Below are positions 16,344-36,691 of a DNA stretch of 64,000 bases, piece after piece. The first letter of the stretch is position 1. Each line of letters starts with the position of its first letter. A program made the translations under genes and the position numbers. The notes beneath the pieces were generated by a model, which ran no database searches, had not been told where the DNA came from, and saw only the letters and a program-made list of their open reading frames with translations. The stretch spans positions 62,001 to 126,000 of the forward strand of contig NZ_CP025791.1 in the NCBI RefSeq assembly GCF_002886045.1, in the 5' to 3' direction. Origin of the DNA: Flavivirga eckloniae (GTDB lineage: Bacteria > Bacteroidota > Bacteroidia > Flavobacteriales > Flavobacteriaceae).

Positions 16344-17306
16344 ATGAGAAAATTGTTTTTTAAGAGTTGTTTGTATGTTGTTTTGATTTTGATAGCATTG
16401 GAAGTTATCGTGCGTGTGCTTCATTTGGCAAAGGACAATCCTTCTCGTTTTGTTGATAAGCATAAAGTTGAAAAATGGGTGCCAAACCAAGAAGGGTATT
16501 CTGTAACGGGTAACCGACGCCAAAACTTTTCTAAATTTTATATAAATAACTCTGGATATAATTCGTACAGGGAGTTTGTGCCTTCTAAAGAAAAAATAGA
16601 GATAGCTCTGGTGGGCGATTCTTTTATTGAAGGATTTCATCAGCACTACTATAATTCCATTGGTAAAAAAATTGAAAACAAGATAGAAGGCGTAGAGGTT
16701 TACGAATATGGATACGCGGGTTACGATTTTGCAGACCAACTACATTTAATTCATGCGTATAAAGATCAGTTCGATTTGATAGACCATGTGGTATTGGGCT
16801 TAAAATTTGAAAACGATTTAACCCGTCCTGAGTATCATGTTGTTGAGGAAAGGATGAACCTTGAATCGCCTATGATTAAAAACCTACGGAAGATAAAGCT
16901 GTTGGTTTATGCTCAAAATATAGGGATACTGGATCCGGTATGGAAATTGGCAGGGAAATTAGCTTCAATTGGCAGGAAAAAAACGCCGAAACTAAAGAAG
17001 GGGCCAACACAAGCAGAAATAGAAGCCGAACATTTAAAATGCATTAAAAATTTTGAGAGCCTGGTTGCTATTTATGGATACGATAAGGATCGGTTTGTAC
17101 TGCTTCTAGACTCCAGCACCACACCTCGGGTCTTTTTAGATTATTTGCGCACAAACAACTTTAATTATCTGGATTTTTATACTAGGCTAAAAAACTCTAA
17201 AGCGCCTACTACACTTATATACGACAGGCATTGGAACAATCATGGAAGGGATTTAATTAGCCAAATAATATCAGAACATATTGTAGGGCAAATGCACAAC
17301 AAATAG
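16344..17306 (+). CDS. Membrane-anchored SGNH-hydrolase-like partner of MBOAT copy 1
   Basis: 320 residues. An N-terminal anchor helix (about 5-27) places the domain in the periplasm. SGNH motifs: block I VGDSFIEG with Ser93, a block II-like GYAG, an Asn in FENDL, and the DxH block in YDRHWNNHG with Asp294 and His296. This is the AlgX/AlgJ/PatB type of arrangement, which completes acyl transfer onto a polysaccharide. The middle region (about 205-235) is lysine- and proline-rich. It starts five bases after the MBOAT stop. The acyl group is inferred to be acetyl but is not shown by the sequence. Confidence 0.8.
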   Translation: MRKLFFKSCLYVVLILIALEVIVRVLHLAKDNPSRFVDKHKVEKWVPNQEGYSVTGNRRQNFSKFYINNSGYNSYREFVPSKEKIEIALVGDSFIEGFHQHYYNSIGKKIENKIEGVEVYEYGYAGYDFADQLHLIHAYKDQFDLIDHVVLGLKFENDLTRPEYHVVEERMNLESPMIKNLRKIKLLVYAQNIGILDPVWKLAGKLASIGRKKTPKLKKGPTQAEIEAEHLKCIKNFESLVAIYGYDKDRFVLLLDSSTTPRVFLDYLRTNNFNYLDFYTRLKNSKAPTTLIYDRHWNNHGRDLISQIISEHIVGQMHNK

Positions 17307-20329: not shown

Positions 20330-21565
20330 TTAAGGTGATAACTTGAACTTAATATTTGTTTTTTTGCCTTTCATGCAATAGGTGTCTTCAAGTCCTTTTA
20401 CTAAATACACATTTACATCGCTAATAGCTTCTGGAGCGTTGAATATAAGGTCGTAAACGATTTTCTTTAAAAAAGCATATTCATCTGTATTGTAATCTAT
20501 AAGTTGTAAATCGTTTTCGGGTATTTCGTTATCGTCTTTAATGACTTGAAAATTTTTGGTATTCGTGTTTTTGTTTCCTTTTAATAAAAAGATCAATTTA
20601 TGAAATCGCGTATGTAGATCTTTTTCTCGAAGTGTTTGTTTTAAAGAGAAATAACCGGCTAAAGAACTGGCAATTAATTTTGCAATAACAGAGGACGAAT
20701 CGTATAATATATGATAATCGAAATTGTAAATTTTGTTGCCCCATCGTTTTTTATAGTCAAAATCTCCTTTTGAGAAATCAAATATTCGAATGTTGTTTTC
20801 TATACACCATTCCAGATGTTTCATAATATCGATAAACCCTATGTTGAATTTGGTATAGTCGATATCGAAAACTGTTAGTGCTCCAAAATCAATATCGTCG
20901 GCTATATAATTAATCGATACAGCAATAGGGGTGTTGTTGTCGAAAATAACAAATAAAGAGGCTTTTTTAGATAGAATCATGGGGTAGCAAACCTCCCTTA
21001 GGTAGCTCCATTTTTTTTCAGCTAAATAATGATTGTTGATTCGTTTTTCGGTATACCGTTTTTTTAACAATTTGTTGAAGTAGTCGAAAGCAACATCGTA
21101 TTGTTCTTTGGTCATGTTATCGCCATAGTACATTTTATAGTCTATGTTAAAGGATTCTTCGAGTCTCCTTTTGTACATTCTGAATTTACGTCTGCTTTTG
21201 GCTGTGAAATTATCGGCTAGATAATCATCTAAATTTGTATAATTGTCCAGATTGGCTAAATAGCCTTTGTATTGTTTTACGGATTTTAATTTTAATGATC
21301 CTGTTTCTGGATTGGATTGGTTTATGTATTCTGGTATATCGTAAATGAAGAAAACTTTATTCTTATAATCAGATTCGTTCATCTGCAGTTTATAAGATAA
21401 CCCGTTGGTTAAATTTTTCCCCATATTCGTGTACATAGGTAGGTATTTGTTTTTAACGAACGATAGGTCTTTTATAAATTTAAACCGTATCTCTGGTTTG
21501 GATTTGTTAAAATGCTTCGACCAAACCGAGGTGAATTCTTTGGATATGAATGGATTATTCTTCAT
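20330..21565 (-). CDS. FemAB/GNAT-like paralogue 1 (with C-terminal module)
   Basis: 411 residues. The paralogue family signature is IFDFSKGDFDYKKRW at 261-275, preceded by ILSKKASLFVIFD at about 198-209, DIDYTKFNIGFIDIMKHLEW, and followed by YHILYDS. This resembles the 'fDFxxGdxxYKxrW' motif of the Acetyltransf_6/FemAB group. A separate C-terminal module at about 350-411 (…DEYAFLKKIVYDLIF … YCMKGKKTNIKFKL) is shared with four of the other paralogues. Long stretches are identical with paralogue 2, so this is a recent duplicate. It follows paralogue 2 after a 196-base gap with an inverted repeat. The acceptor is unknown; transfer of an amino acid or acyl group is inferred. Confidence 0.82.
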   Translation of the reverse strand: MKNNPFISKEFTSVWSKHFNKSKPEIRFKFIKDLSFVKNKYLPMYTNMGKNLTNGLSYKLQMNESDYKNKVFFIYDIPEYINQSNPETGSLKLKSVKQYKGYLANLDNYTNLDDYLADNFTAKSRRKFRMYKRRLEESFNIDYKMYYGDNMTKEQYDVAFDYFNKLLKKRYTEKRINNHYLAEKKWSYLREVCYPMILSKKASLFVIFDNNTPIAVSINYIADDIDFGALTVFDIDYTKFNIGFIDIMKHLEWCIENNIRIFDFSKGDFDYKKRWGNKIYNFDYHILYDSSSVIAKLIASSLAGYFSLKQTLREKDLHTRFHKLIFLLKGNKNTNTKNFQVIKDDNEIPENDLQLIDYNTDEYAFLKKIVYDLIFNAPEAISDVNVYLVKGLEDTYCMKGKKTNIKFKLSP

Positions 21566-21761: not shown

Positions 21762-22811
21762 TTATTGTTTTGGAGGAATAAGTTTAATGCTTTTGATTTT
21801 GTTCTTGCTTTTATTCTTTTTTCCTTTTAAATTAAATAGAACGCGATGAAAAACTTCGTGAATGTTTTTATCTCTTAAATATTGCTTTAATTTGAAATAT
21901 ATAGACAGAAATGATGCGATAGAACTTGATATTACAGAATTGGAATCATATAGGATATGATAGTCAAAACTATAGGCTTTATTGCTCCATCTTTTTTTAT
22001 ATTCGAAATCTCCTTTTGAAAAATCGAAGGTTTGAAAATTATTTTCAATACACCATTCTAGGTGTTTCATAATATCAATAAATCCTAGGTTGAATTTTGA
22101 ATAGTCTGTATTAAAAACTGTTAATGCACCAAAAACAATATTGCTAGCCATATAATTAACAGATATGTTAATAGGAGTGTCTTCGTCAAAAATCACAAAT
22201 AAAGAGGCTTTTTTAGACAAAATCATGGGGTAGCAGAGCTCTTTTAAATAGTTCCATTTTTTTTTGGTTAAAAAATGATTGTTAATTTGTTTTTCGGTAT
22301 ACCTTTTTTTAAATAGTCTATTAAAATTATCAAATATAAAATCGTATTGCTCTTTGGTAATGTTGTTACCATAATACATTTTATAGTTTATGTTAAAGCC
22401 TTCTTCTAATTTTTTAATATACTTTTTAAAGGCTTTTCTGCTTCTCGAGCTAAAGTTGTCGGCAATGTAATTCTGTAAATCTGAGTAATTCTCAAGATTA
22501 GCTAAATACCCTTTGTATTGCTTTACAGATTTTAATTTTAAAGAACCTGTTTCCAGGTTAGATTGGTTTATATATTCAGGTATATCGTAAATGAAGAAAA
22601 CTTTGTTTTTATAGTCGTTTTCATTTTCATTAAGCCTGTATGACAATCCGTTGGTTAAATTTTTGCCTGTATTTACATAAAGGGGTAAATACTTGTTTTT
22701 GACAAACGATATGCCTTCGGCAAATTTAAAGCTTATAGGCAGTTTAGAATGATTAAAATGTTTAGACCAAATTGAAGTAAACTCCTTTGATGTAAATGGG
22801 TTGGTTTTCAT
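21762..22811 (-). CDS. FemAB/GNAT-like paralogue 2 (no C-terminal module)
   Basis: 349 residues. The family signature is TFDFSKGDFEYKKRW at about 261-275, with ILSKKASLFVIFDED and YSKFNLGFIDIMKHLEW before it. It ends in a lysine-rich tail (KGKKNKSKNKIKS) where paralogue 1 has the extra module. N-terminal halves of paralogues 1 and 2 share long identical runs such as KNKVFFIYDIPEYINQSN, so they arose by recent duplication, with gain or loss of the module. It lies 28 bases after the PLP-like gene and is probably the last gene of that transcript before the gap. Confidence 0.82.
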   Translation of the reverse strand: MKTNPFTSKEFTSIWSKHFNHSKLPISFKFAEGISFVKNKYLPLYVNTGKNLTNGLSYRLNENENDYKNKVFFIYDIPEYINQSNLETGSLKLKSVKQYKGYLANLENYSDLQNYIADNFSSRSRKAFKKYIKKLEEGFNINYKMYYGNNITKEQYDFIFDNFNRLFKKRYTEKQINNHFLTKKKWNYLKELCYPMILSKKASLFVIFDEDTPINISVNYMASNIVFGALTVFNTDYSKFNLGFIDIMKHLEWCIENNFQTFDFSKGDFEYKKRWSNKAYSFDYHILYDSNSVISSSIASFLSIYFKLKQYLRDKNIHEVFHRVLFNLKGKKNKSKNKIKSIKLIPPKQ

Positions 22812-22839: not shown

Positions 22840-23916
22840 TTAAATATTGTTTAACCACTTATTAATAGTTTCTATAATATATTCCATGTCTTCGGTAGTA
22901 TACCTGAAATCTATATGTAGGTTTAAAAAATATCGCCATTCGTAATCTATTTTGTTATCTGGCCATAATGATGATGGGTAAACGCCATTTGAAACTAAAA
23001 AGGATTTTAATGAATTGAATTCTTTTTCATCCTTAAATAGTAAAAGAAGACCAAAAGCTGTATGGTCGGGTCTTTTAACTACTTTAAAATATGGCGTATC
23101 TTGAATTTCTGAATATAAAACATCCAGATTGTTATTTTTTAATTGTTTTGTGTCTAGGTTGATAAATGATCTTATAAAATCTTCATGATCATCTAGGAGT
23201 TCGGCAAAATCTGAATTGATATTAAGAGCTTCCTCAACGTCGTAAAATAGGGGTAAGTAAGTTGATGTTTCTATGGTTTCGTCGCCATCTACATACTTGG
23301 ACTTGAGTTTCATGGCTTGTACCATTAAATCCCATGCTTCATAAAGATCATTATTGTTTTTTTTAGAATGAATTATATCATTTGTGCTTGAATTTGGCTG
23401 CCAATACATACCGCCTAAGGGAATGGGTAGTGATTTTCTCAATGATACAAAACAATAATCTGCTTCACTGTTCAAACAAGCTTTGCTTAGCCAGCCATGC
23501 GAATGATCTTCTATAACTAGAGGAGCACCTGTTGCTGTGCTTTTTTTAGGCATTGTACTTAAGCCCCAATAGTTATTAATTAATACAACATCATTGCTGT
23601 CTGCGAAATTTGAAATATTAATCTCTGCTGGAAACTCAAATGGGTTTACGTCGTATGTGTGAATAACGGGGTGGAACTTTTTTATCCAGTGTAACGTATG
23701 CTGGCAATAATAATTTGGAAACCAAATTTTTGAAACCTGTTTCGAGCTTGTAACTTCGTTTAAAATATGCAAAAGCGCATGTCTGCCCGTGTAGCATATT
23801 TTGTAATTAAAATTTAAGTCGATTGTGGAATCTTTTAGTAATTCCTGATCATTTTCAAAATGAAAATAAGAACCAATACCTTCTTTTCGCATTTTAACCA
23901 AATTATTCATTATCAC
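22840..23916 (-). CDS. DegT-fold PLP-dependent aminotransferase-like protein
   Basis: 358 residues. PLP-binding hallmarks of the DegT/AHBA type are visible though divergent: IEDHSHGW with Asp137 (pairs with the pyridine N), and SLRKSLPIPLGG with probable internal-aldimine Lys161. The N-terminal 'YTGRHALLHIL' corresponds to the cofactor-phosphate-binding turn. Classic DegT proteins aminate nucleotide-linked keto sugars. This one sits with an adenylating enzyme and a carrier protein and may instead act on an amino acid or acyl-carrier substrate. The alternative start at 23910 would remove two residues. It overlaps the sugar-transferase 3' end by 14 bases. Confidence 0.75.
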   Translation of the reverse strand: MIMNNLVKMRKEGIGSYFHFENDQELLKDSTIDLNFNYKICYTGRHALLHILNEVTSSKQVSKIWFPNYYCQHTLHWIKKFHPVIHTYDVNPFEFPAEINISNFADSNDVVLINNYWGLSTMPKKSTATGAPLVIEDHSHGWLSKACLNSEADYCFVSLRKSLPIPLGGMYWQPNSSTNDIIHSKKNNNDLYEAWDLMVQAMKLKSKYVDGDETIETSTYLPLFYDVEEALNINSDFAELLDDHEDFIRSFINLDTKQLKNNNLDVLYSEIQDTPYFKVVKRPDHTAFGLLLLFKDEKEFNSLKSFLVSNGVYPSSLWPDNKIDYEWRYFLNLHIDFRYTTEDMEYIIETINKWLNNI

Positions 23917-24518: not shown

Positions 24519-24770
24519 TTAATTGGTGTTTGATGTTTCGGTTTCAATGGCTTTAAGTAAATCCCCAACATTGTCCATGTTCATTAAGTCCATGAGTTTA
24601 AACTTTATTCCGAACATGTTTTCAATTTCTGTAATGATTAGCATGTGGGTTACAGATTCCCAGCCATCTACATCGTGAGCGGTGGTTTCATCTTTAAGCT
24701 CAAAATTATTGTGTTCTAATATTTTTGTAAAAGCTTCGTTTACTTTGCTTAAAATGTCTTCTCTAGTCAT
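24519..24770 (-). CDS. Acyl/peptidyl carrier protein
   Basis: 83 residues. The 4'-phosphopantetheine attachment motif is DVDGWESVTHM with modified Ser39, followed by the usual 'IITEIENMFGIKF' helix. Such stand-alone carriers hold an activated amino acid or acyl group as a thioester. It overlaps the adenylating-enzyme gene by four bases (ATGA type), a strong sign that the two work together, as DltC with DltA or a free PCP with its A domain. No ACP synthase is visible nearby, so a host phosphopantetheinyl transferase must load it. Confidence 0.93.
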   Translation of the reverse strand: MTREDILSKVNEAFTKILEHNNFELKDETTAHDVDGWESVTHMLIITEIENMFGIKFKLMDLMNMDNVGDLLKAIETETSNTN

Positions 24771-26269
24771 TTTTTTTCTATTATTTTTTTTAATTGTTTT
24801 CTGTCTAGTTTGCCATTGCTATTATGTGGAAGTCCCGGTAAAAAAAATGTTTTTGTTGGAACCATATAGTTTGGCAGGTTGTTTTGTAAGTGTTCAAATA
24901 GATTGGTTGTATCTGTTTTTTCGCCTTCAATAACCAAAGCTATTTCATTATTTCCGTTTTCAATATCAATATCAACAACGCTTATGTTGTTGTTTATAAC
25001 GTTTCTTATGTGGTATTCAATTTCGCCAAGCTCCACTCTAAAACCTCTAATCTTTACCTGAAAATCTTTTCTTTCCACATACATAAGGTCACCGTCTTCA
25101 TTCAGATAGCAAACATCTCCGGTTTTATAAAATCGTTTAACCGAACCGTTACTGGTCGTGTGGTTAAAAAATAATTTATCGTTTAGTTTGTCGTTTTTCC
25201 AATATCCAGTTGTAAGCTGATCTCCAGACAGGCATAATTCCCCTTGAACTCCGGACGCTACTGTTTCTCCAGATTCGTTTATAATGATGTACTCAATACC
25301 ATTTAAGGGTTTGCCTATGGGTAATACTCCGTTATGAGATTTATTGGAGCCGTTAATGTTGTAATTGTAATAGGTGCTACAAACAGTACATTCTGTAGGT
25401 CCGTAATGGTTGTAAAGTTTACTGTTAGGAATGCACTTAAGCCATTCTTTAACAATATCGTCGTTTAGTTTGCCGCCTCCAAAAACACAATATCGTACGC
25501 TTTCTGCGTTTATTTCGGAGAAATACGGACGCAGATAGTTTATTATCGCAGGCACCATTTTAATAACTGTTAGTTCGTACTTATTTAAAAGTTTAAAAAC
25601 CTGTAAGTACTTCATGGAGTTGCCAGGTATAGTATAACTGCAGGCTCCTGATAAAAAAGCGGGCATAAATGCTGTAAGCGAGGCATCGAAAGTGAGGTCG
25701 TACATCTGCAAACATTTATCTGAATGATGCAATTTGTATTCGTCGTCTTTGTCTAAGGCGCTTAAAAGAGCGTTTAAGTTTTTAAAACTTATCGGAATTC
25801 CTTTTGGATCACCAGTGCTACCACTTGTAAATAGAATGTATGCGATATTGTTTTCTGAAAAATCAGGGCTTTTCAAATCGTTAATATCTATGCCGGAATC
25901 GCTATTTGTGGTACAGAAAACTTCAAAAGAATCGCTAAAATCGGACGCTTTTGATGAGTCTAGTACGGTATTGATATCTGTTTGATCAAATATTTTTAAA
26001 TTTCTGTCTAATGGCGCAGTGGGGTTAATGGGGATGTGGCCCTTGTTCTCAAACCATAGCGCGAAAATAGAGGCGTAGGTTTCTAAATCGTCATTTGCTA
26101 CTAAGCCAAATAGCTTTTCTTCTGGGTTTATGTTTTTTTGTATATAGAGTCTAATTCTGTTAATAGCATCAGACAAATCTTGATAGGTATAAAAGGTATC
26201 ATTAATACACAGAGCATGCTTTGAACTATGGGTTTTAAATGATTCTTTAAGTCTATTAATAAAATTCAT
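24767..26269 (-). CDS. Amino-acid-type adenylating enzyme (DltA/NRPS A-domain-like)
   Basis: 500 residues, the length of DltA or a single A domain. Core motifs: A3 FTSGSTGDPKG (148-158), A4 FDAS with Asp195, A5 NHYGPTE, A7/A8 YKTGD … RGFRVELGEIE, and A10 NGKLDRK with catalytic Lys487. The FDAS aspartate is the residue that binds the amino group in amino-acid-activating domains, so an amino acid is the likely substrate. It would form an aminoacyl-AMP and load the adjacent carrier protein. By-eye alignment with GrsA puts Lys237 in a pocket position usually not lysine, so the specificity may be unusual. It lies 11 bases after the GNAT-like gene. Confidence 0.9.
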   Translation of the reverse strand: MNFINRLKESFKTHSSKHALCINDTFYTYQDLSDAINRIRLYIQKNINPEEKLFGLVANDDLETYASIFALWFENKGHIPINPTAPLDRNLKIFDQTDINTVLDSSKASDFSDSFEVFCTTNSDSGIDINDLKSPDFSENNIAYILFTSGSTGDPKGIPISFKNLNALLSALDKDDEYKLHHSDKCLQMYDLTFDASLTAFMPAFLSGACSYTIPGNSMKYLQVFKLLNKYELTVIKMVPAIINYLRPYFSEINAESVRYCVFGGGKLNDDIVKEWLKCIPNSKLYNHYGPTECTVCSTYYNYNINGSNKSHNGVLPIGKPLNGIEYIIINESGETVASGVQGELCLSGDQLTTGYWKNDKLNDKLFFNHTTSNGSVKRFYKTGDVCYLNEDGDLMYVERKDFQVKIRGFRVELGEIEYHIRNVINNNISVVDIDIENGNNEIALVIEGEKTDTTNLFEHLQNNLPNYMVPTKTFFLPGLPHNSNGKLDRKQLKKIIEKK

Positions 26270-26280
26270 TAGTTTATAGT

Positions 26281-27375
26281 TTATGCAAAATGACCATCTT
26301 GTTCACTAATTTTCACATTAGTAAAGTTGTAATTAATACTGCTATGGGCTAAAGAAACTTGTTCTTTCTTATTGGCATAGATACATAAAAACTTATGGTG
26401 AATTTGTTTCCCTAAGTTTTCGTTATCGGTAAGTATGTATGTGCATTTAGATTTTATGAAACGCTTCATTAAAATGTCCAGGCAATGGCTGTAATAGTCT
26501 TCGTCTGGTAAAAAATAACGTAATACATATTCGTCTCCTCTTATAAGGGCAGAAAAGAAGCCTACTATTTTGTTATTGCTAAAAACTAAGATGTTCTCGT
26601 TAAAAATTTTGTACGACACACTACTTACCAAACATTTATAAGGTGTTTCTTTTGATCCGTTTGTGTCGATATATTGCTTGTTGTCTATTTGCCAATTAAT
26701 ATATGCTTTCGATTTTGGTATTAAATCACCTTCGCATTTTTTCTCTATAAATTCCCAAACGGTATCGTCTACTGTGTCGATGTTTTTATATGTTGTTTTT
26801 CTGTTGCTTATTGAAATCTTCAACTTGTTTATTGTCGAGATGAAGAAGCGTGAAAGATAGGTGACTACTTTTAATAATGGAGTTAAAGGTTTAAGTGATT
26901 TTACTTTAGTTACGATTAGATTGTGATCTAAACTAAAAACAAAAATATACTTGTCTCGTTTCCCGAATTCTATAAACGATTGTTTTTTGTAATACTCTAA
27001 TGTTTCTTCTCCAACATATTTAACAAGAACCTGTTCTTTTACAGATTCTATAGAGAGTCGCTTCGAATATGTTGATAATACTGAGTTTTCGTATTTTTCG
27101 TGAATCCACCATCTGTTGCTCCAGTACACTTTTTGTTGCCCTTGATCTGTAGCTAGGTAATCGGGTACCAGGTATATAAAAGATATCAATTCGTCTTCCT
27201 CATAACCCAAAATAGCACAAATATCTTCGCTTTGTATGCGTTCGTTTTCAAGTAGCCATTTTGCCTTGTTTTTAGAAAAGGGGACAACTTTGGTGTTTTC
27301 GCCCCAGTATAGGTTTTGACTCAAAGCATCCTCTAACATTTCTTTGGTTAATGGCGTAATATTTATGTTTTGCAT
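26281..27375 (-). CDS. Divergent double-GNAT-like protein
   Basis: 364 residues. The N-terminal half (about 1-145) has a GNAT-like pattern: WLLENER, AILGYEEDELISFIYLVP and a 'YYKKQSFIEFGKRDKYIFV' strand-loop. A short hydrophobic segment lies at about 155-175, then a second GNAT-like half (about 190-350) with ENILVFSNNKIVGFFSAL. The catalytic residues are not obvious. It is the first gene after an internal promoter (27441-27448) and a leader hairpin-terminator (27394-27414), and it is followed directly by the adenylating enzyme and carrier protein, so it probably acts on their product. It is not a member of the eight-paralogue family. Confidence 0.7.
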   Translation of the reverse strand: MQNINITPLTKEMLEDALSQNLYWGENTKVVPFSKNKAKWLLENERIQSEDICAILGYEEDELISFIYLVPDYLATDQGQQKVYWSNRWWIHEKYENSVLSTYSKRLSIESVKEQVLVKYVGEETLEYYKKQSFIEFGKRDKYIFVFSLDHNLIVTKVKSLKPLTPLLKVVTYLSRFFISTINKLKISISNRKTTYKNIDTVDDTVWEFIEKKCEGDLIPKSKAYINWQIDNKQYIDTNGSKETPYKCLVSSVSYKIFNENILVFSNNKIVGFFSALIRGDEYVLRYFLPDEDYYSHCLDILMKRFIKSKCTYILTDNENLGKQIHHKFLCIYANKKEQVSLAHSSINYNFTNVKISEQDGHFA

Positions 27376-27548: not shown

Positions 27549-28700
27549 TTATACGTTAAGAGTGATTTTTTGGTACTGAGCGGCGCTTTTTACAATAAAT
27601 AGATTTTCGCTATTGTTTTTGTAAATTTTTATGTCGTTGCTATGTGTAATTGTTGTGTACAAAAAACTATAAACATGCTTCTTTAACAAAAAGGAGTCAT
27701 TATTTAGGAGAGATAGTTCTTTGAAGCCTTTCAGATCTAAACCATCAATAGGTCTAATCTCTGAAGCTACAATATTACTGCTGTTTTTTCTTTTTGGTGT
27801 TAGGTAATTGTTTATTAAGGGTAAAATTTCGTTTATCTTTTTAGATTTAAGGTATTCTTTAAGTTTAAGTTTGGTGCCGGAAATTCGTGCTTTGTAACTA
27901 GTTAGGAGGGAAGCGCCATTGTAAGTAAGGTGGTAATTGTACCTGTAGATATTGTTGCTCCACCGGCGTTTGTAATCCATTCCACCAACACCCATTTCGA
28001 AAAGTTTGTAGCCGTTGTTGGCGCACCATTCAATTTGTTTGTAGATTTCTACATGACCTAATCCGAACTTTGAGTAATCGATTTTGAATGATGATATGTA
28101 GCTAAATAGCACCTTGTCATAATGGTAGTTTAAAGAAATTTCTATGGGTTCGTCTTCATTGTAAATAACGAATAGCGACGCTTCTTTATTTAAGATTTTT
28201 TCATAGGTGTCTTCAGCTAGTGTTTGCCATTCGTATAGGTTTTTATGTGTTTCGTTTCGTTCCTCAAACCTGGCAATGATCATATCGTACAGCGATTGCA
28301 TGATAAAGTCGTAATCTGCGGGCGGCATCTCGCCGTAAAACATATTGTATTTTATATTGAAACACAGTTCTAGTCGCTTAACATATCGTGTTAGGATGTT
28401 TCTTTTTTTTGAATTGAACTGGCGTTGCATGTAGCCTTCGATAGAATCGGAATCGTTGAGCAGTATGGAGTAGCCCCAGTTGTATTGAGGGATTATTTTG
28501 CTTTTAAAAGAAGTGTCTCTTAGGTTGAGTTTGAAATACTCTGGTACTAGCCTGAATGTAAATATGTTGTTTTTTGCGCATTCAGAGTTTGTTTTGTTCT
28601 TAATGCTTGTTCCAAAATATTCAATGCTCTCGTACAAATGATTGATCTCTGGCGTTCTAAATAAAACAGGAAAGATTGGTATTTTGTTTTTTTTACTCAT
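27549..28700 (-). CDS. FemAB/GNAT-like paralogue 3 (with C-terminal module)
   Basis: 383 residues. The family core is present as ILNKEASLFVIYNEDEPIEISLNY, KIDYSKFGLGHVEIYKQIEW, LFEMGVGGMDYKRRW and YHLTYNG. The signature is altered: FD-KGD of other copies reads FE-VGG here, while YKRRW is intact. The C-terminal module (about 325-383) has NNDSFLLKKHVYSFLY and ends YQKITLNV. It is the last gene of the six-copy tandem block; a 173-base gap with terminator and promoter follows. Preceded by paralogue 4 with a 19-base gap. The specific donor and acceptor are unknown. Confidence 0.8.
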   Translation of the reverse strand: MSKKNKIPIFPVLFRTPEINHLYESIEYFGTSIKNKTNSECAKNNIFTFRLVPEYFKLNLRDTSFKSKIIPQYNWGYSILLNDSDSIEGYMQRQFNSKKRNILTRYVKRLELCFNIKYNMFYGEMPPADYDFIMQSLYDMIIARFEERNETHKNLYEWQTLAEDTYEKILNKEASLFVIYNEDEPIEISLNYHYDKVLFSYISSFKIDYSKFGLGHVEIYKQIEWCANNGYKLFEMGVGGMDYKRRWSNNIYRYNYHLTYNGASLLTSYKARISGTKLKLKEYLKSKKINEILPLINNYLTPKRKNSSNIVASEIRPIDGLDLKGFKELSLLNNDSFLLKKHVYSFLYTTITHSNDIKIYKNNSENLFIVKSAAQYQKITLNV

Positions 28701-28719
28701 TGAATTCTTAGCCTAAGGA

Positions 28720-29916
28720 TTAGTTTTCTATGGTTATTTTTTGTGTCTTTTTTAAACCTTTAAAATAAAACGTTTTTTTGTTATTTGAATCATTATAAAC
28801 TACCACATTGTCTGCTAGTTCCTGGCTTTTATGTAAAAAATAGTTTAAGGGTTTTATTAAAAAATAATAATCGTCTTTACTCAAGTTTATTGTATTTAAG
28901 CTTGTAAGCTTCGGAATTTCGGAAATGGTATTCTCAATATTAAATTTGATGTTTATAGGTGTTTTGTTTTTAGTCTTTGCCAACCTGTATTTATATTTAG
29001 CGTATTTTCCATACCACAGGTGTAGCTTGGTTTTTTTAAGAAATTGAATGAGCTTGAAGCGTAGCTTTAATTTTAGTATTTTAATATGGGCTACAATGGA
29101 GGCGGTTAGAGATTTCGAATTATAGATTACGTGTTCATTGTACATGTATTCTTCGTTAATATATTTTCTTTTATGAAGAAAATCGCCTCGACCCATATCG
29201 AAAATTTTATACCCGTTTTGAAAAGCCCATTCTAAATGGTTTACCATGTTTATATGCCCCAGATTGAACATTTGGTAGTTTATGTCGTAACAGCTATTCC
29301 AGTGAAATACAGTGTCTTCATCTATGAAATTTAAAGTGATACTTATGGGTTTATTTTTGTGGTATATGGCAAAAATACAGGCTTCCTTTTTTAGTATTAA
29401 CGGATACATCATTTGATGATATAGCTCTAAAAAAGGTAATTCGAAATTTAATTCTTCCTTTTGAGCAAAACGTTGTTCAGTCATTTCAAATAAGTTATCA
29501 AAAAGCGAATCGTATTCTTTTTTTGCAATGTCTCCGTGAAATATTTTGTATTCGGGAGCAATACATAAATCCAGTCGTTTTCTATATCTTTTTAATTGTG
29601 ATTTTCTTGGCCTGCCTAATTTGTTGTTTAGATAATCCTCTAAATCCTCAAAAAGTTCTAAGTTTATTAAATACCCAGCATAAAGCGGAGTCGATAATTG
29701 TTTTAAATGTTTCGTAGTGTTCTTAAAATCAATAGAAAAATAGTTGGGGACGTCACTAATACTATATGTTTTATGTTCTACATCAAGATTGGAATCTGTT
29801 TTGTGTACAACATTGTTTGTGAACGAATTGGTTATTTTTTTCCAAAAAGGAGGGAAGGCCTTGTTTTTAAAAAACAGGTCTAATAAAAAACTAACATGGG
29901 CGTGCTTTTTACTCAT
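28720..29916 (-). CDS. FemAB/GNAT-like paralogue 4 (with C-terminal module)
   Basis: 398 residues. Core: LILKKEACIFAIYHKNKPIS, YDINYQMFNLGHINMVNHLEW, then IFDMGRGDFLHKRKY and EHVIYNS. The signature has His for the Tyr of YK and Tyr for the terminal Trp, so the active region is remodelled. The C-terminal module (about 340-398) has KDDYYFLIKPLNYFLH and ends KTQKITIEN. Its 3' neighbour starts 19 bases later and its start overlaps paralogue 5 by eight bases, so translation is coupled. Confidence 0.8.
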   Translation of the reverse strand: MSKKHAHVSFLLDLFFKNKAFPPFWKKITNSFTNNVVHKTDSNLDVEHKTYSISDVPNYFSIDFKNTTKHLKQLSTPLYAGYLINLELFEDLEDYLNNKLGRPRKSQLKRYRKRLDLCIAPEYKIFHGDIAKKEYDSLFDNLFEMTEQRFAQKEELNFELPFLELYHQMMYPLILKKEACIFAIYHKNKPISITLNFIDEDTVFHWNSCYDINYQMFNLGHINMVNHLEWAFQNGYKIFDMGRGDFLHKRKYINEEYMYNEHVIYNSKSLTASIVAHIKILKLKLRFKLIQFLKKTKLHLWYGKYAKYKYRLAKTKNKTPINIKFNIENTISEIPKLTSLNTINLSKDDYYFLIKPLNYFLHKSQELADNVVVYNDSNNKKTFYFKGLKKTQKITIEN

Positions 29917-31075
29917 TCTGTTCTATGGTTACAAGTTGACTTTTATTATTGGATTTTATTAAATACTGGTTTTGAGAATTGTTGATTTTAAGCACTTTCG
30001 TATTGTTGACAGATGCTTTGGAGGTAAATAAAAAATCGTATAGGGTTTTCCTTAAAAAAGCATAGTCGTTATTTTTATGGATGTTTATTTGTGATGTGCT
30101 TTCTATTTTGCTTTCATCTGGATTGTCAACAATAACAATAGGTTTAGCATGTGCTGTTTTAATTTTTCCTCTATTAATCTTTTTAAATTGTAAATGTAGT
30201 TTCGAGCCTTTAATTACAGTGTAGCTTTTGTATTTAATGCGTTCCTTTAAATGTATTAATTTCCCAATGAAAAATGAATTTATTGAGTTTGAATTATAAA
30301 CGACGTGATTGTAATAATAATGCGACTTTGTAGCCCATTTTGTTTTGTAATAATCGTAGCCTTTCAATAGGTCGTAAACTTCAAAAGCATTATTAAAACA
30401 CCATTCAATATTTTTTAACATATCGATACTTCCTAAGTGGAATTTCGAATAATCGATATCGTAACCACTAATAATGTAAAACCCTAGCTTTTCCTTAAAC
30501 ATATTAATTCTTATGCTAATAGGTTTTTTCCCGTCGTAAATAACAAATAGGCTGGCTTTTTTACTTATTATTAAATCATACACGATATCGTGAAATTCTT
30601 CCAAATGCTGCAGTTCGTAATTGACTTCTTGTTTTTCGTTGAACCGTTTTATTAACAGGTCTTTTAAAACAACAAAAAGACGATCGTATTCTTGTTTGTC
30701 AATCTCGCCGTGGTAACAAGCGTAGTTTATGTTAAAACAGGTTTCCAGTCTGTTTTGGTAACGCCTTAGGTTTGATCTGCTTTTGGTGCTAAAGTTTAAC
30801 TTTAAGTACTCTGAAAAGCTTTTAAATGACTTGATTTCAACCAAATGCCCTTTAAGTGTCTTTGTTTGGGCTAACTTTAGTTTGTTTTTAGGTTGTGTAT
30901 TTATGTTTAGATAGTCGGGAAAATCTTTAATTAAAAATACGTGTTCGGGAGTATTCGAACTGGTGTTAATGGTGTAGTTAAAACCCATACTATCTGTAAC
31001 TTTACTGTATATGGAGGGGAGGCTATTTTCTGCTAAAAATGCTTTTAAAAATGTTATATTTTTAATGATAGCCAT
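29909..31075 (-). CDS. FemAB/GNAT-like paralogue 5 (with C-terminal module)
   Basis: 388 residues. Core: IISKKASLFVIYDGKKPISI, GYDIDYSKFHLGSIDMLKNIEW, VYDLLKGYDYYKTKW and NHVVYNS. The signature keeps the D, K, G, YK and W positions. Upstream, 'TKSRSNLRRYQNRLETCFNI' is the shared basic helix found in all copies. The C-terminal module (about 328-388) has NNDYAFLRKTLYDFLF and ends SQLVTIEQNE. It overlaps paralogue 4 by eight bases and lies four bases after paralogue 6. Confidence 0.82.
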   Translation of the reverse strand: MAIIKNITFLKAFLAENSLPSIYSKVTDSMGFNYTINTSSNTPEHVFLIKDFPDYLNINTQPKNKLKLAQTKTLKGHLVEIKSFKSFSEYLKLNFSTKSRSNLRRYQNRLETCFNINYACYHGEIDKQEYDRLFVVLKDLLIKRFNEKQEVNYELQHLEEFHDIVYDLIISKKASLFVIYDGKKPISIRINMFKEKLGFYIISGYDIDYSKFHLGSIDMLKNIEWCFNNAFEVYDLLKGYDYYKTKWATKSHYYYNHVVYNSNSINSFFIGKLIHLKERIKYKSYTVIKGSKLHLQFKKINRGKIKTAHAKPIVIVDNPDESKIESTSQINIHKNNDYAFLRKTLYDFLFTSKASVNNTKVLKINNSQNQYLIKSNNKSQLVTIEQNE

Positions 31076-31079
31076 AGGT

Positions 31080-32267
31080 TTATTGAAAGGTGATTTTAGA
31101 TATGGTATTTTTCCCTTTTACAAGATAAGTATCTGTTTCATTTTGAAATTTAAAAATTTCTATAGTGTTTATAGATTCTTGATTGCTGTATAAAAGGTTG
31201 TATACGGGCCTTTTTAAGTAGCTGAAGGTGTCGTTGTTTAAATCGACGTTTGTCAGTTTGGTTTCAGGATTTAACGTTTCAAGCTTTTCAATAGTTGTTT
31301 TAGAATCATCAGTAATCTTGCTCAATTCCCTATTCCGGTATTTATACTTTAAAAAATTGTGATACAATGTATTAAAGTTCATTTTCTTTAAAACTTTAAC
31401 CAATGCGTAAAAGGCACGGGTTCTGGTAACGATTATGTTAGCAGAAAGTCTGGTTATTATTGATTTTGAATTGTATAATACGTGTTTTTGAAAATCGTAT
31501 TGAGTATCGATAAGTTTGGTTTTGTAGGGGTAATTTCCCTTTAGGAGATCGAAAATCTCTATATCATTTTCGAAGCACCAATCAAGTTGCTTTATAAAAT
31601 CTGTAAACCCGATATAAAACTTTGAGTAATCGATATCGTAGGTTCTTATATAACCATAAATTGTTTTGTTTCTTACCAAATTCAAACAAATGCTAATAGG
31701 TTTCTTGTTATTGTAGATAACAAAAAGTGCAGCTTCTTTACTATTTATTAGGGGGTAAGCTATTTCGTGATAAATACTCCAACGAGACAGATCGTAATTC
31801 TGTATTTTTTTTTCTAAAAACCGATTTTTGATCATCTTATGAAATTCATCAAAAAGATATTCGTATTCGCTTCTCGAAATCTCGCCAAAAAAGCTTTTGT
31901 ACTCTATGTTAAAGCACGTTTCCAGTCTGCGTTTGTATGTTCTAAATTTCGATCGTCGCCCTGCGCTAAACTTACTCTTTAAATAAGCGTTTGTATCGCT
32001 GTAATTTTTAAGCAGAATTAATGATCCTTTGTATGTGTTTATAGTTTTTAGCTTCCATTTGGTGCTCGTAACCGTTGCTTTTAAATAGCTGGGAAAGTCA
32101 TAAATACAATACAGGAAATTATCGTCTTTAGGTTCTGGTGTTGTGCTTTTGTGTATGTACTCCTTAGAAATACTATTTAAAATTTTGCTATAAACAGGCA
32201 GGAGCACTTTTCTTTCTAAAAAAGTACTTAAAACATCCAGACTATTTGGCAATATTCTTTTTAACAT
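31080..32267 (-). CDS. FemAB/GNAT-like paralogue 6 (with C-terminal module)
   Basis: 395 residues. Core: LINSKEAALFVIYNNKKPISI, YDIDYSKFYIGFTDFIKQLDW, IFDLLKGNYPYKTKL and KHVLYNS. The terminal Trp of the signature is Leu here; D, K, G and YK remain. The shared basic helix is SAGRRSKFRTYKRRLETCFN. The C-terminal module (about 335-395) has NNDTFSYLKRPVYNLLY and ends ISKITFQ. Gaps of four bases separate it from both neighbours, as expected for a tight operon built by tandem duplication. Confidence 0.82.
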   Translation of the reverse strand: MLKRILPNSLDVLSTFLERKVLLPVYSKILNSISKEYIHKSTTPEPKDDNFLYCIYDFPSYLKATVTSTKWKLKTINTYKGSLILLKNYSDTNAYLKSKFSAGRRSKFRTYKRRLETCFNIEYKSFFGEISRSEYEYLFDEFHKMIKNRFLEKKIQNYDLSRWSIYHEIAYPLINSKEAALFVIYNNKKPISICLNLVRNKTIYGYIRTYDIDYSKFYIGFTDFIKQLDWCFENDIEIFDLLKGNYPYKTKLIDTQYDFQKHVLYNSKSIITRLSANIIVTRTRAFYALVKVLKKMNFNTLYHNFLKYKYRNRELSKITDDSKTTIEKLETLNPETKLTNVDLNNDTFSYLKRPVYNLLYSNQESINTIEIFKFQNETDTYLVKGKNTISKITFQ

Positions 32268-32271
32268 ACAG

Positions 32272-33222
32272 CTATTGTTTTACAACCTTGCTTTTATAAG
32301 TGTAAATAAGTTTATCGAACATAAATAGTTTTCCAATTATGTTTTTATTTCTTAAAAATTGCAGGAGTTTAAGCTCTAGGGCTATAACTCTTGCGCTTAA
32401 CCTGGATATGATTGATCGTTTATTGTAAAAAATATGATAGAAGAAATGATAGGTATGGTTACTCCATTTTTCTTTATAATACGTTTTGCCCATCGATAGG
32501 TCGAATATGCTAATGTGGTTGTTTATTAGCCATTCTATATGGTGCACCATGCTAATATCTCCCATGTTGTATTTTGAATAATTCATATCGTAGGTTTGAA
32601 TATGGCTAAAAACGATATCGTTTAAATGAAAATTCAATGTAATGGCGATAGGGTTGGAGTTATCATAGATTACATGTAATGAGGCATTCCTATCTTGTAT
32701 TTTTTGAAAAGTAGATGCTTGCAAGTCATTCCAGTTAGGGAGGTACCTATTGTACATTTTCTTCTTTTTAAATCGTGCATTGAGTAATTTGTAGAAATCC
32801 TCAAAAATCCTATCATATTCCTGCTTATCTATGCTTCCGAAAAATACCTGTGATGAAATATTGTGGTTTTCGTGAAGCCTATTAGTTTTTGAATTTAAAT
32901 TCTTTCTGTTTCGTTTGTTAAGCGTACTATTTATAAAGTCTGTAGCATTTGTATATCCAGATAGATTTAACAGATATCCATTGTATTGCAGTACTTCTTT
33001 AAATTTAGTGTTTGCATCTTTTGGGGTAAAGGTAAAATAGTTAGGAATGTCCTTGGTGATATAGATGGATTTAAAATCACTATCTATAAGGTTTTTGGTG
33101 GTATAGTTTCTTTGGGTTAATGCATTCGAAACTTTACCATTATACAACGAGCTTATTGTTTTGTTTAAAAACAAATCAAAAATTAAATGACTGTTCTTAT
33201 TAAAAAAAAGCTTGTGAATCAT
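32272..33222 (-). CDS. FemAB/GNAT-like paralogue 7 (short, no C-terminal module)
   Basis: 316 residues, the shortest copy. Core: IQDRNASLHVIYDNSNPIAI, YDMNYSKYNMGDISMVHHIEW, IFDLSMGKTYYKEKW and YHIFYNK. The KG pair of the signature reads MG, while YK and W are kept. The shared basic helix is LNKRNRKNLNSKTNRLHENH. It ends shortly after the core without the C-terminal module. It lies four bases upstream of paralogue 6 and 48 bases after paralogue 8. Confidence 0.8.
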   Translation of the reverse strand: MIHKLFFNKNSHLIFDLFLNKTISSLYNGKVSNALTQRNYTTKNLIDSDFKSIYITKDIPNYFTFTPKDANTKFKEVLQYNGYLLNLSGYTNATDFINSTLNKRNRKNLNSKTNRLHENHNISSQVFFGSIDKQEYDRIFEDFYKLLNARFKKKKMYNRYLPNWNDLQASTFQKIQDRNASLHVIYDNSNPIAITLNFHLNDIVFSHIQTYDMNYSKYNMGDISMVHHIEWLINNHISIFDLSMGKTYYKEKWSNHTYHFFYHIFYNKRSIISRLSARVIALELKLLQFLRNKNIIGKLFMFDKLIYTYKSKVVKQ

Positions 33223-33270: not shown

Positions 33271-34281
33271 TTATTCAGCGTACCGTTTTGAGTTTAGAAA
33301 AAATTTGAACTGATGGATATAATCCGTAAGATGCTTTTTTCTAACAAATAGTTTAAAGGCAAATAGGTTTTTATAGAATAAGGCTAGTGCCTTGGCTTTT
33401 ATCGACTTTTTATCATAAAAAATGTGGTATTCGAACCAATAAGGTTTATTAGCCCATCGTTGCTTGTATTCATAATAACCTTTAGAGAAATCTAAAGCTT
33501 TGTAATTGTTTTCTATACACCATTCTAATTGCTTCATAATGCTAACAGTGCCAAGTCTAAGCTTTTTATAATCGATATCGAAAACCCTAATAACGTCCAG
33601 TACGGTATCCTTAGAAAAATTAAGCAGGGTAATAGCGATAGGCTTATCTTTATCGTATACTACAAAAAGCCCAGCTTGTTTATTTAAAATCAAGGGTAAG
33701 GTTACTTCCTTATAAAAGTCCCATTCCTCAGGATCTAAATTGTTGTTTACAATTTTTTTATCAGAAAAGCGCTTTTTAAGCAGCTTGTTAAAATGATTAA
33801 AGATGTTTTCGTATGTCTCTGGGGTTATGTCGTCTAAATACATTTTATAATGTATGTCGTGCGACGTTTCCAGCTTGCGTTTGTAACTGTTAAACTTGTA
33901 ACGGCTTTTTTTGCTAATAACATCGAGCATGTATTCTTTAAGTGTATTGTACTTTTTTAAGTCGCAAATAAACCCAGGATACTGCTTCACTTTATAACAG
34001 CTTATAGCGTTGGTGCTTGTGTTGTTTTTTCCATTAAACTCTGGTACATCGTAAATTATAAAAACATTGTTCTTATAGTCGCTGGAAATGTTGTTAGACA
34101 GTCTGTATGAAATTCCTTTTGTATTAGTGGTGCCCGTACTAAGAAATACAGGTAGCTTTTTATGTTTTATAAAAGTAAGGGTATTAACAAAACTAAAAGT
34201 CAATGGCTTTTTGTTATCGTTAAAGTGTTTTAACCATATAGACTTAAAAGTTTTTAATAAATAAGGATTTTCATTATTCAT
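33271..34281 (-). CDS. FemAB/GNAT-like paralogue 8 (no C-terminal module)
   Basis: 336 residues. Core: ILNKQAGLFVVYDKDKPIAI, FDIDYKKLRLGTVSIMKQLEW, ALDFSKGYYEYKQRW and YHIFYDK, with the complete signature. Its N-terminus (FKSIWLKHFN … DYKNNVFIIYDVPE) matches paralogues 1 and 2 much better than its tandem neighbours, so it belongs to their subgroup although it is 12 kb away. It lies eight bases after the SGNH gene and is the first of the six-copy block. Confidence 0.82.
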   Translation of the reverse strand: MNNENPYLLKTFKSIWLKHFNDNKKPLTFSFVNTLTFIKHKKLPVFLSTGTTNTKGISYRLSNNISSDYKNNVFIIYDVPEFNGKNNTSTNAISCYKVKQYPGFICDLKKYNTLKEYMLDVISKKSRYKFNSYKRKLETSHDIHYKMYLDDITPETYENIFNHFNKLLKKRFSDKKIVNNNLDPEEWDFYKEVTLPLILNKQAGLFVVYDKDKPIAITLLNFSKDTVLDVIRVFDIDYKKLRLGTVSIMKQLEWCIENNYKALDFSKGYYEYKQRWANKPYWFEYHIFYDKKSIKAKALALFYKNLFAFKLFVRKKHLTDYIHQFKFFLNSKRYAE

Positions 34282-34289
34282 TTAGTCCG

Positions 34290-35237
34290 TTATTTTTCTG
34301 TTAAATTAGTTTTAATATCCCTACTTAACAACTTAGAGAACTCCTTAGCGCTTTTTGAAAGCATATGGGAGCCATCGTAAGTTTTGTAATTATCACCTAA
34401 GGTTGAATAATTTAAAAATTTTACACCATACTTTTTAGAAATACTATCGATTTGTTTGTCGAAGTCTTTCCATAAACTATTTTCCAAGGCTATAATATCG
34501 GTATCTGCCGGTAAGCGAACAATAAAAACATTGCCAGCGGTTTTTAAATATTGAATGGTGTTTATAAAATGGTTTAAACGGTAATTGGAGAGCTGTTCTT
34601 TTTTTATTTTCCTTTTGTAATATCTAATGGTTAACGATTTCCAGTGTTTAATATCGCTTTCTTTCATTTTCTGGAACTTACCATTTTCGGTTACTTCGTT
34701 CCATCCGTTCTGGTGTGGGATATAATGCTCCCATTTATTTAAATCGTGCAGCGTGTTATATAAAGGTTGCGAATAGGTGTTAATGATATAGCTGTAGTTT
34801 GGTAGAGACGTTAAATTGTCTACTTTACCAATAATACCCTCTTTATCCATGTTGTAAACATTGGTGTCGTCCATACCAAGTGGGGCAGAGAAACTTCCCG
34901 GGGAAATGGAAACAATAAATAAACCTTTCTTGGCATTTGGTTTTATTTTTTTCTTAATGCCTTCTAGGTATATTTCGCCGTAAGATGACTGTACTGTGTT
35001 CATGGCAAAATTAACCATAGGCTTTTCGAAATTATCAGAGCTTAATTCATTTTCAATGACTTCTGGTGAAATCCCTTCGCTAGCACGCGATAAACCAAGA
35101 ATAAGACCGCCAGCTTCTTGCGAAAACTTATTGTAATATGGGTCTACATAACCTTCCGAAAGCTTGTTTACAAAATAGGCATAAGTTACTGCTAGTATTA
35201 TGCTGAAAATGATTGTCTTAAAAATAAAGCTTTTCAT
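34290..35237 (-). CDS. Membrane-anchored SGNH-like protein (DltD/AlgJ-type), partner of MBOAT copy 2
   Basis: 315 residues. One N-terminal anchor helix (about 5-24) places the domain outside the inner membrane. The nucleophile region is LILGLSRASEG with probable Ser50; the C-terminal block is YDGSH with Asp288 and His291, the DxxH pair of SGNH/DltD folds. Other blocks are weak, so the class assignment rests on these motifs plus the position five bases after an MBOAT gene. In Dlt systems DltD with DltB transfers the aminoacyl group from the carrier protein to the surface polymer. An adenylating enzyme and carrier protein lie in the same gene block. Confidence 0.75.
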   Translation of the reverse strand: MKSFIFKTIIFSIILAVTYAYFVNKLSEGYVDPYYNKFSQEAGGLILGLSRASEGISPEVIENELSSDNFEKPMVNFAMNTVQSSYGEIYLEGIKKKIKPNAKKGLFIVSISPGSFSAPLGMDDTNVYNMDKEGIIGKVDNLTSLPNYSYIINTYSQPLYNTLHDLNKWEHYIPHQNGWNEVTENGKFQKMKESDIKHWKSLTIRYYKRKIKKEQLSNYRLNHFINTIQYLKTAGNVFIVRLPADTDIIALENSLWKDFDKQIDSISKKYGVKFLNYSTLGDNYKTYDGSHMLSKSAKEFSKLLSRDIKTNLTEK

Positions 35238-35242
35238 GATCG

Positions 35243-36691
35243 TTAAAATTGAAAATAAATAAATGTGTTCTGACGGTTAATAGCGAATAGAACTATCGTT
35301 AAAACATAACACATATATATACTCCACCTTATGGGTGTTGATTTACTTATAACCAATTCGTAAATTTTATCGTTTCCTTTAAAATAATGAATGGTTTGTA
35401 CGGCTATCATTAAGGCAAAGCATAAAAATAGCTCGAAATAATTGTTTAAAATATTAACATGTAAGCCGGTAATATTAAACATGTTCTTGAAATACAGTAT
35501 GGCATCTGCTACAGATGGTGACCTAAAAAAGATTAAAGGGATGCTAAGGAGTACTACTATAGCGCACCACCCCAGTATGTTAATTGCAATTTGAGGGAGT
35601 TTAAGGGCTTTAAAAATGCGTTTTCTAATACCGTTGGTACTAAACTCTATAATAAGCAGTATGGCATTAATTATTCCCCAAATAACAAAGGTCCAATTAG
35701 CTCCATGCCATAATCCTACAACAAAGAACAGGATAAGTACATTTCTAATAATTTTTAGTTTGGATCCTCTCGATCCGCCTAATGGTATGAAAATATAATC
35801 TTTAAGCCAGTCCATTAATGATATGTGCCAGCGTTTCCAAAAATCTGATATGGATGTTGAAAAGTAAGGTCTGTTAAAATTTTGCACCAAATCAATCCCC
35901 ATTACTTTAGCAGCACCTATTGCGATAGCCGTGTAGGCTGAAAAATCATAATATATTTGATACGCAAAGAAAAAGGAGCCAATAAACAAAGGGAGCCCAT
36001 GATTGAATTCTGGGTCTTCGAAAGCAGCATCAACATAAACACCTAATCTGTCTGCTACCACAACTTTTAAAAAAAAGCCCCATGCTATTAATACGAGTCC
36101 TTTTTTAATATTATCCAAATTAACCGTAGCCAAGGTTTTTAATTGGGGAATAAGTCTTGATGCTCTTTCTATAGGCCCAGCAACCAACTGAGGGAAGAAA
36201 GATACATACAAGGCAAAATACCCAAAGTGTTTTTCTGGTTTAATATGTCCTCGATAAACATCTATGCTGTAACCAAGTGTTTGAAATGTGTAAAAGCTTA
36301 TGCCCACAGGTATTAAAATCTGATTGAAACTGTAAGCACCCGTATTCTGTGTTTCGGAAATAGCTATTCCGAAAAAAGCCAATACATCTTGAATTGACGA
36401 TGTAAAAAAGGATAGGTACTTAAAAGAAAATAGTATGCCAATGTTTACAAGTATGCTTATACATAAGTATAGCTTTTTCATCGATTGCCTTGCGTGAGCC
36501 ATTTTAAGGGCGCAAAAATAATCTACGGTAGTAGAAATAAATAAAAGAATGGCTAGTTCTGGTTGGTGAACCATATAAAAATAATAACTGCCAAGTAAAA
36601 GCCACAACCATCTGTGTTTATGGTTAAGTAGGTAATATCCAATAATCATTATTGGAAAGAAAACAAGGAATTCAAACGAATTGAACAGCAT
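35243..36691 (-). CDS. MBOAT-family acyltransferase (DltB/AlgI-like), copy 2
   Basis: 482 residues with about ten membrane helices. MBOAT motifs: 'YVSFFPQLVAGPIERASRLI', WKRWHISLMDWLKDYIFIPLGG and LWHGANWTFVIWG with the conserved His. It is closely related in layout to copy 1 but encoded on the other strand, at the head of the block that carries the adenylating enzyme, the carrier protein and eight FemAB-like copies. It is followed five bases later by an SGNH-like partner. It has a -7 box 33 bases upstream of the start, so it is the first gene of the transcript. Confidence 0.92.
   Translation of the reverse strand: MLFNSFEFLVFFPIMIIGYYLLNHKHRWLWLLLGSYYFYMVHQPELAILLFISTTVDYFCALKMAHARQSMKKLYLCISILVNIGILFSFKYLSFFTSSIQDVLAFFGIAISETQNTGAYSFNQILIPVGISFYTFQTLGYSIDVYRGHIKPEKHFGYFALYVSFFPQLVAGPIERASRLIPQLKTLATVNLDNIKKGLVLIAWGFFLKVVVADRLGVYVDAAFEDPEFNHGLPLFIGSFFFAYQIYYDFSAYTAIAIGAAKVMGIDLVQNFNRPYFSTSISDFWKRWHISLMDWLKDYIFIPLGGSRGSKLKIIRNVLILFFVVGLWHGANWTFVIWGIINAILLIIEFSTNGIRKRIFKALKLPQIAINILGWCAIVVLLSIPLIFFRSPSVADAILYFKNMFNITGLHVNILNNYFELFLCFALMIAVQTIHYFKGNDKIYELVISKSTPIRWSIYMCYVLTIVLFAINRQNTFIYFQF

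Follow-up and report, generated by a model that had tools for sequence, protein, structure and literature searches.

Conserved signature differences among tandem PF13480 GNAT paralogues of Flavivirga eckloniae suggest divided specificity

Introduction

A surface-sugar gene cluster of the marine bacterium Flavivirga eckloniae raises the question whether enzyme copies that deviate from a shared sequence signature are inactive or have different tasks. The cluster lies in a stretch of 64,000 nucleotides (contig NZ_CP025791.1, positions 62,001 to 126,000), which is called the window here and to which the coordinates given below refer. The list of open reading frames (ORFs) and their translations revealed eight paralogous ORFs in the window, all on the minus strand, which we number P1 to P8. 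A first-pass annotation had described the signature FDxxKGxxxYKxxW as complete in P1, P2, P5 and P8 and had proposed that, should its Lys-Gly and Tyr-Lys-Trp parts contribute to catalysis, the deviating copies P3, P4, P6 and P7 may use another donor or be non-catalytic structural partners. We find that the variants of the signature are of old origin, show complete or almost complete fixation in each orthologue clade and are under purifying selection. With a probability of roughly two in three, the sequence comparisons point to FemX-like transferases that would share a common catalytic core, divide the specificity among them and be active in the modification of a surface glycan.

Results

Eight GNAT paralogues with different signatures

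Motif letters and positions of all eight copies were verified by translation. The array starts with P8 as its first GNAT gene (33271-34281, signature LDFSKGYYEYKQRW at 33454-33495) and continues with P7 (32272-33222, FDLSMGKTYYKEKW at 32464-32505), P6 (31080-32267, FDLLKGNYPYKTKL at 31512-31553), P5 (29909-31075, YDLLKGYDYYKTKW at 30335-30376), P4 (28720-29916, FDMGRGDFLHKRKY at 29161-29202) and P3 as the last gene (27549-28700, FEMGVGGMDYKRRW at 27960-28001); P2 (21762-22811, FDFSKGDFEYKKRW at 21987-22028) and P1 (20330-21565, FDFSKGDFDYKKRW at 20741-20782), which are 70% identical and sisters in the tree, complete the set. The signature is therefore not complete in all four copies named for it, since P5 has a Tyr and P8 a Leu in place of the first Phe. 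The letters quoted for the deviating copies were right, with the omission that P4 also carries an Arg instead of the Lys of the KG pair (KG Lys), and the interval 27549-33222 to which the observation had been assigned spans P3 to P7 and leaves P1, P2 and P8 outside. All eight copies pass the curated cutoff of 22 bits for PF13480 (Acetyltransf_6) with scores between 40.5 and 54.9 bits, and a search of the whole genome of this strain for the family returned these eight matches and no other (E up to 0.001).

The copies also differ at their C-terminus, as P1 and P3 to P6 have an extension of about 55-60 amino acids (modelled in P4 as a helix and strands) and P2, P7 and P8 have none. The P8 copy of Flagellimonas (L067:5195-6436) is 413 amino acids long, as if it had retained the extension. 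The gap between P1 and P2 was inspected for a remnant of the extension and none was seen.

Signature variants are fixed in orthologue groups

Sixty genomes including that of the window were searched and 20 of them matched at E up to 0.001. The family set comprises 94 matches from the window, L019 and 20 regions (93 above 80 bits, 92 longer than 250 amino acids), a further set holds 74 matches above 80 bits (73 of them longer than 280 amino acids), and 11 loci were obtained when a collection of species genomes was scanned with P6. Five of these loci add distinct arrays, which belong to Gaetbulibacter, Flavivirga aquatica, Flagellimonas and two Flaviramulus. Repeats (L057, L058, L059, L061, L062, L068-L071 and L085) were omitted from the counts of 15 and 30 arrays given below. 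P3 to P8 each form a clade with 100/100 support in the tree of 92 rows and with a support of 99-100 in a tree of 68 rows to which Flagellimonas was added. Each of these clades has one member per genome in 10 genomes, except for P6 with a second tandem copy in two of them.

Between P6 and P5, five of the 15 arrays hold an additional P6-like gene in tandem, with YDLLKG..L (L047:9211-10380, L051:9069-10241, L060:11203-12372, L064:11199-12368 and L065:11201-12361).

The copies are divergent, and within the 15 distinct arrays of the window type the deviations are kept per orthologue group. The position of the KG Lys is Val in all 15 P3 copies, Arg in all 15 P4 copies and Met (12) or Ile (3) in P7, and it is Lys in 15/15 of each of P5, P6 and P8. 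P4 has its His in 15/15 arrays and its Tyr in 14/15, and P6 ends with Leu in 14 of the 15; the exception is Flagellimonas with Trp, which also has Trp at the last position of P4. As the differences are kept in this way, a different donor or acceptor for each copy is a reasonable reading.

Both the KG Lys and the final Trp vary across the family. Lys is present at the KG position in 41 of the 92 homologues, and the residue is Gly in the FemX-like outgroup and in FemX itself, so that a general catalytic role of the KG Lys was ruled out; judged by the alignments, it seems to be a mark of some clades rather than of catalysis. The outgroup-rooted tree, in which long branches meet, was not trusted for deciding whether the KG Lys is ancestral. 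The last position is occupied by W 69 times, L 12 times, Y 10 times and M once among the 92 homologues, Trp returns in P4 and P6 of Flagellimonas, and Phe, Leu and Met occur also outside P4 and P6. A different set of residues is kept: the Lys of the YK pair (YK Lys), the Gly that follows the variable residue and one Arg are each present in 95/95 rows of the 15 arrays, the same three and one other Gly in 92/92 homologues, and among the further 73 homologues the counts are 73, 72 and 73 for YK Lys, Gly and Arg.

The ratio of nonsynonymous to synonymous substitution rates (dN/dS) was computed for seven genome pairs, several of the farther ones with saturated and undefined dS. In the three closest pairs it is 0.13-0.17 for P3, 0.10-0.13 for P4, 0.10-0.11 for P6 and 0.12-0.25 for P7, compared to 0.13-0.16 for P5 and 0.09-0.21 for P8. 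Variant and canonical copies thus share one range (0.09-0.25 over all six groups, P7 being at the top in one pair), and the variant copies are therefore constrained about like the canonical ones, P7 least. Decay to pseudogenes was ruled out by the open frames together with these values from the three close pairs.

These data bear directly on the proposal that P3, P4, P6 and P7 have no catalytic activity of their own and act as structural partners for the copies with the complete signature. Conserved pseudo-enzymes can occur, and P4 and P6 have lost aromatic residues at signature positions. On the other side, the core Lys, Gly and Arg are invariant in 95/95 rows, dN/dS of the variant copies is within the range of the canonical ones, the KG Lys and the final Trp are variable across the family, and the P3 signature is found with at most one (the first) letter changed in four further arrays (L072, L076, L077 and L078). 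We consider this proposal unlikely.

Conservation of the motif was further compared with the remainder of the proteins. Of its 14 columns, 13 are invariant over the 15 arrays in P3, 11 in P4, 11 in P5, 9 in P6, 7 in P7 and 10 in P8; the P3 signature has the most invariant columns of all groups, and the motif is enriched for such columns in each group, with hypergeometric P values from 2e-7 (P3) to 0.015 (P7, weak). Fixation in all six groups (at least 14 of 15 arrays) applies to 32 of 293 comparable columns, 12 of them with the same residue and 20 with residues that differ between the groups, and five of these 20 are in the motif (P = 0.001). P7, with Met in 12 and Ile in three arrays, keeps the column of the KG Lys out of these five. 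It is very improbable in the light of these numbers that the differences merely reflect neutral drift among redundant copies: tandem duplicates can drift, and P1 and P2 are a close pair, but the differences show full or almost full fixation within clades which span several genera, invariant columns are over-represented in the motif in the six groups, and both dN/dS and the fixation over 15 arrays contradict drift.

Signature type follows the position in the array

Immediately ahead of P8, 10 of 10 array genomes and then five of five further ones carry the MBOAT O-acyltransferase gene (35243-36691, minus strand, PF03062) and the gene of an SGNH-like protein (34290-35237, minus strand); both are partners of the window-type array. 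The order MBOAT-SGNH-P8-P7-P6-P5-P4-P3 is collinear in all 15 distinct arrays of this type. Among 397 sampled Flavobacteriaceae genomes, 89 have a member of the family at E up to 1e-30; at most four candidates were scored per genome, so that copy numbers are lower bounds. Regions were taken from 20 of these genomes, chosen for several matches, and five of them are repeats. In total, 30 tandem arrays were compared, 15 of the window type and 15 others, including L054, which runs off its contig, and L075, for which an ORF of 154 amino acids is counted.

F[S/T]KG is found in the first gene of 28 of the 30 arrays (13/15 in the other-type arrays, the exceptions being L072 and L073), and the last gene ends with YKRRW likewise in 28 of 30 (again 13/15 in the other type; exceptions L055 and L080). 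Shuffling the genes within arrays gave on average 4.9 arrays with F[S/T]KG first and 5.7 with YKRRW last, and none of 20,000 shuffles reached the observed numbers, which is not to be read as a true probability, given the choice of genomes with several matches, the nature of L054 and L075, and the inclusion of relatives (L077 and L078 are from one genus, as are L079 and L083). The last gene of L072, L076, L077 and L078 carries FEMGVGGMDYKRRW with at most the first letter changed, as P3 does, and the gene content of these arrays is different: L072 is without P8, L076 without P4, and L077 and L078 without P5 and P6. Hence the array order is kept while the gene content varies, and the signature tracks the position in the array, for which shared ancestry accounts in part. 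No description of such tandem arrays was found in the openly accessible literature searched.

A speculative extension, which we regard as doubtful, would be that stand-alone ligases of the FemX-like type form a collinear assembly line in Flavobacteriaceae, with the order of the genes matching both the type of signature and the sequence in which the enzymes act. The F[S/T]KG enzyme would start, specialised enzymes in the middle would each attach an acyl or aminoacyl unit of their own, and the YKRRW enzyme would finish a defined oligo-acyl or peptide decoration on the surface glycan, of which the structure would vary from genus to genus with the gain and loss of middle genes.

Structural neighbours and the link to FemX

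AlphaFold2 models were obtained for P4 and P8 with a mean predicted local distance difference test (pLDDT) score of 90.5 and 80.2, respectively. In the P4 model the motif (residues 239-252) runs from the end of a strand (238-243) through a loop and a short helix (247-250) to where the chain nears the following strand. A Foldseek search with P4 gave FemX as best match in PDB (E 3.6e-9, template modeling (TM) scores 0.39/0.46), and the top 25 rows consist of FemX, MprF-type lysyl- and alanyl-phosphatidylglycerol synthases, the streptothricin enzymes Sbb17 and Sba18, and two rows of 2hqy. The latter, a structure of unknown function, heads the otherwise similar list of P8; ATE1 is found lower in the list of P4. 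FemX and Sbb17/Sba18 are aminoacyl-tRNA-using families, and so are the MprF-type synthases. At the level of domain profiles, none of the eight copies matches Pfam FemAB (PF02388) at E up to 1, and PF04339 (FemAB_like) passes its cutoff in three of the eight copies and PF04377 (ATE_C) in one (P8).

The alignment bridge between the array family and FemX is a FemX-like GNAT encoded at 19084-20181 on the plus strand, identified by profile comparisons; it scores only 16.7 bits against the profile used for the whole-genome search of the eight paralogues. The protein matches FemX in PDB with E 2.7e-4, and its family matches the array family with E 2.8e-4 (probability (Prob) 41) and FemX with E 8e-9 (Prob 96), each in a single pairwise profile comparison. 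Taken together, the two alignments place YKxxW over the VFKxxF stretch of FemX, with the YK Lys on Lys305, which was placed in the alignment by counting, and the KG Lys on a Gly. A putative FemX-type catalytic Lys after an aromatic residue is thus present by profile alignment through this intermediate family, the aromatic being His in P4. The residue before Lys305 is Phe304, as counted in the alignment. PMC12945691 characterises Lys305 of FemX and Lys329/Phe328 of DhpH-C as reactive, essential and contributing.

In other genera, relatives of the GNAT at 19084-20181 are often encoded a short distance ahead of the array's first gene, and some are within proteins of 585-889 amino acids as if fused (e.g. 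L046:6391-9054).

It is possible, to a clearly lesser degree than the FemX-like reading, that the copies are ordinary N-acyltransferases of sugar amines which use acyl-coenzyme A (acyl-CoA) or acyl groups on an acyl carrier protein instead of aminoacyl-tRNA, the likeness to FemX being a matter of shared ancestry. This would be compatible with divided specificity. PF13480 is broadly annotated as an acetyltransferase domain, the acetyltransferases VipF and PamZ are found lower in the Foldseek lists of P4 and P8, and both an acyl carrier protein (24519-24770, minus strand, PF00550 by Pfam) and a stand-alone amino-acid adenylation enzyme (24767-26269, minus strand) are encoded in the window. Yet the best structural neighbours are mostly aminoacyl-tRNA-dependent, and the type of adenylation enzyme changes between the array genomes.

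Adenylation enzyme and MBOAT-SGNH pair

The positions of the adenylation pocket were placed by eye using the GrsA numbering. The resulting code of the window enzyme, DATKVGHVCK, agrees in six of the first eight letters with DLTKVGHI, the Asp code of SrfAB-M2 given in Table 2 of PMC3207962. The enzyme and the acyl carrier protein look like an aminoacyl-loading pair with a putative Asp-like code. The enzyme matches AMP (adenosine monophosphate) ligase TIGR03098 partly (194.6 bits), far under the equivalog cutoff of 592.35.

The MBOAT ends with FIYFQF, as do all 20 MBOAT rows listed, of which 15 are distinct. GxS and DGSH motifs are retained in the SGNH-like proteins next to them and read GLSRA and DGSH in the window. 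With E values up to 0.01, neither Pfam nor NCBIfam gave a match for the SGNH-like protein at 34290-35237. An MBOAT with a Tyr-bearing C-terminal hexapeptide is thus found beside an SGNH-like protein, as expected for an O-acylation pair, on the SGNH side by motifs. According to PMC12148441, MBOAT-SGNH pairs shuttle the acyl group via the Tyr of a C-terminal hexapeptide, and by analogy FIYFQF may be this acyl-bearing hexapeptide; a statement that PatA has FIYFQF as its hexapeptide was looked for in that paper and not found. The window pair resembles PatA-PatB, AlgI-AlgJ and DltB-DltD as described there, with the difference that six GNAT genes follow. The MBOAT and the adenylation enzyme are not DltB and DltA equivalogs of the Dlt D-alanylation system, since the MBOAT scores 150.6 bits against a DltB cutoff of 375 and the adenylation enzyme 245.7 bits against a DltA cutoff of 559.85.

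A second MBOAT (14887-16338) likewise ends with FIYFQF and is followed by the gene at 16344-17306; relatives of both are near several arrays of the other type. The cluster proteins at 26281-27375 and 22840-23916 are without Pfam match (E up to 1, then up to 0.01), and relatives of the former adjoin AMP ligases in other array genomes.

Discussion

The differences in the signature are old, nearly fixed and tied to the place in the array, and the copies therefore look like a division of labour and not like dead copies. The earlier idea of non-catalytic structural partners is not supported. From fold and context, N-acylation or aminoacylation of a surface-glycan precursor would be the most likely function, with a putative donor and acceptor. 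Each of the eight copies would be catalytically active, and the YK Lys may do the job of Lys305 in FemX. The KG Lys, the residue before the YK Lys and the last aromatic residue might tune the acyl or aminoacyl group or the acceptor amine for each copy. In such a scheme the copies would N-acylate the surface-glycan precursor stepwise in the cytosol, and the MBOAT-SGNH pair would O-acylate the same polymer outside the membrane.

Several observations weigh against active FemX-like transferases with a common core. The direct match between the array family and FemX is weak (E 0.014, Prob 3), aligns LDFSK with YDLGG and ends before YK; profile searches of PDB with the array family did not find FemX, and the mapping of the YK Lys to Lys305 depends on the intermediate family of the GNAT at 19084-20181. 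The TM-scores to FemX are about 0.4-0.47. The core itself is not without exception, as the Gly is absent from one of the 73 further homologues and the Arg is replaced by Gln in one of 68 rows. Fixation also loosens with distance: the P4-like copies of L077 and L078 carry Tyr and not His, and P6-like copies further out end in Trp, Phe or Leu. The aromatic residue of FemX is replaced by His in P4 and by Asn or Ile in a few more members of the family, and some copies could be impaired by this replacement. In addition, the MBOAT-SGNH pair is directly before just two of 12 further arrays (L072 and L076), and three types of adenylation pocket code (DATKVGHVCK, DFV[TS]SGY[VI]YK and DLVLLCVIYK) are found among the array genomes; therefore the adenylation enzyme and the acyl carrier protein are not the fixed partner of the array.

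A coupling of the array to one activated amino acid was ruled out by the differing codes.

Several known systems can be compared with the array. Members of FemABX such as Weissella FemX (PMC12945691) belong to the same fold neighbourhood, with a strand, a loop and a short helix together with the aromatic-Lys pair. The array copies differ from them by the missing match to PF02388, by Lys, Arg, Val or Met where FemX has Gly, and by their arrangement in tandem; their loop before YK is shorter than in the FemX-like outgroup. The exosortase-linked FemAB family TIGR03019 is matched partly by the GNAT at 19084-20181 (48.4 bits), far under the equivalog cutoff of 260.35. HfsK of Caulobacter is, by its description in PMC5362036, also a FemX-like GNAT tied to a secreted polysaccharide, that of the holdfast, and it is described there with two paralogues at distant locus numbers, in contrast to the ordered array found here.

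The "incomplete" signatures are no longer to be taken as decay. Should the signature indeed encode position, the distinguishing residues would provide a ready specificity map for the large PF13480 GNAT family, and the gene order could predict the decoration of the glycan, comparable to the module order of peptide synthetases.

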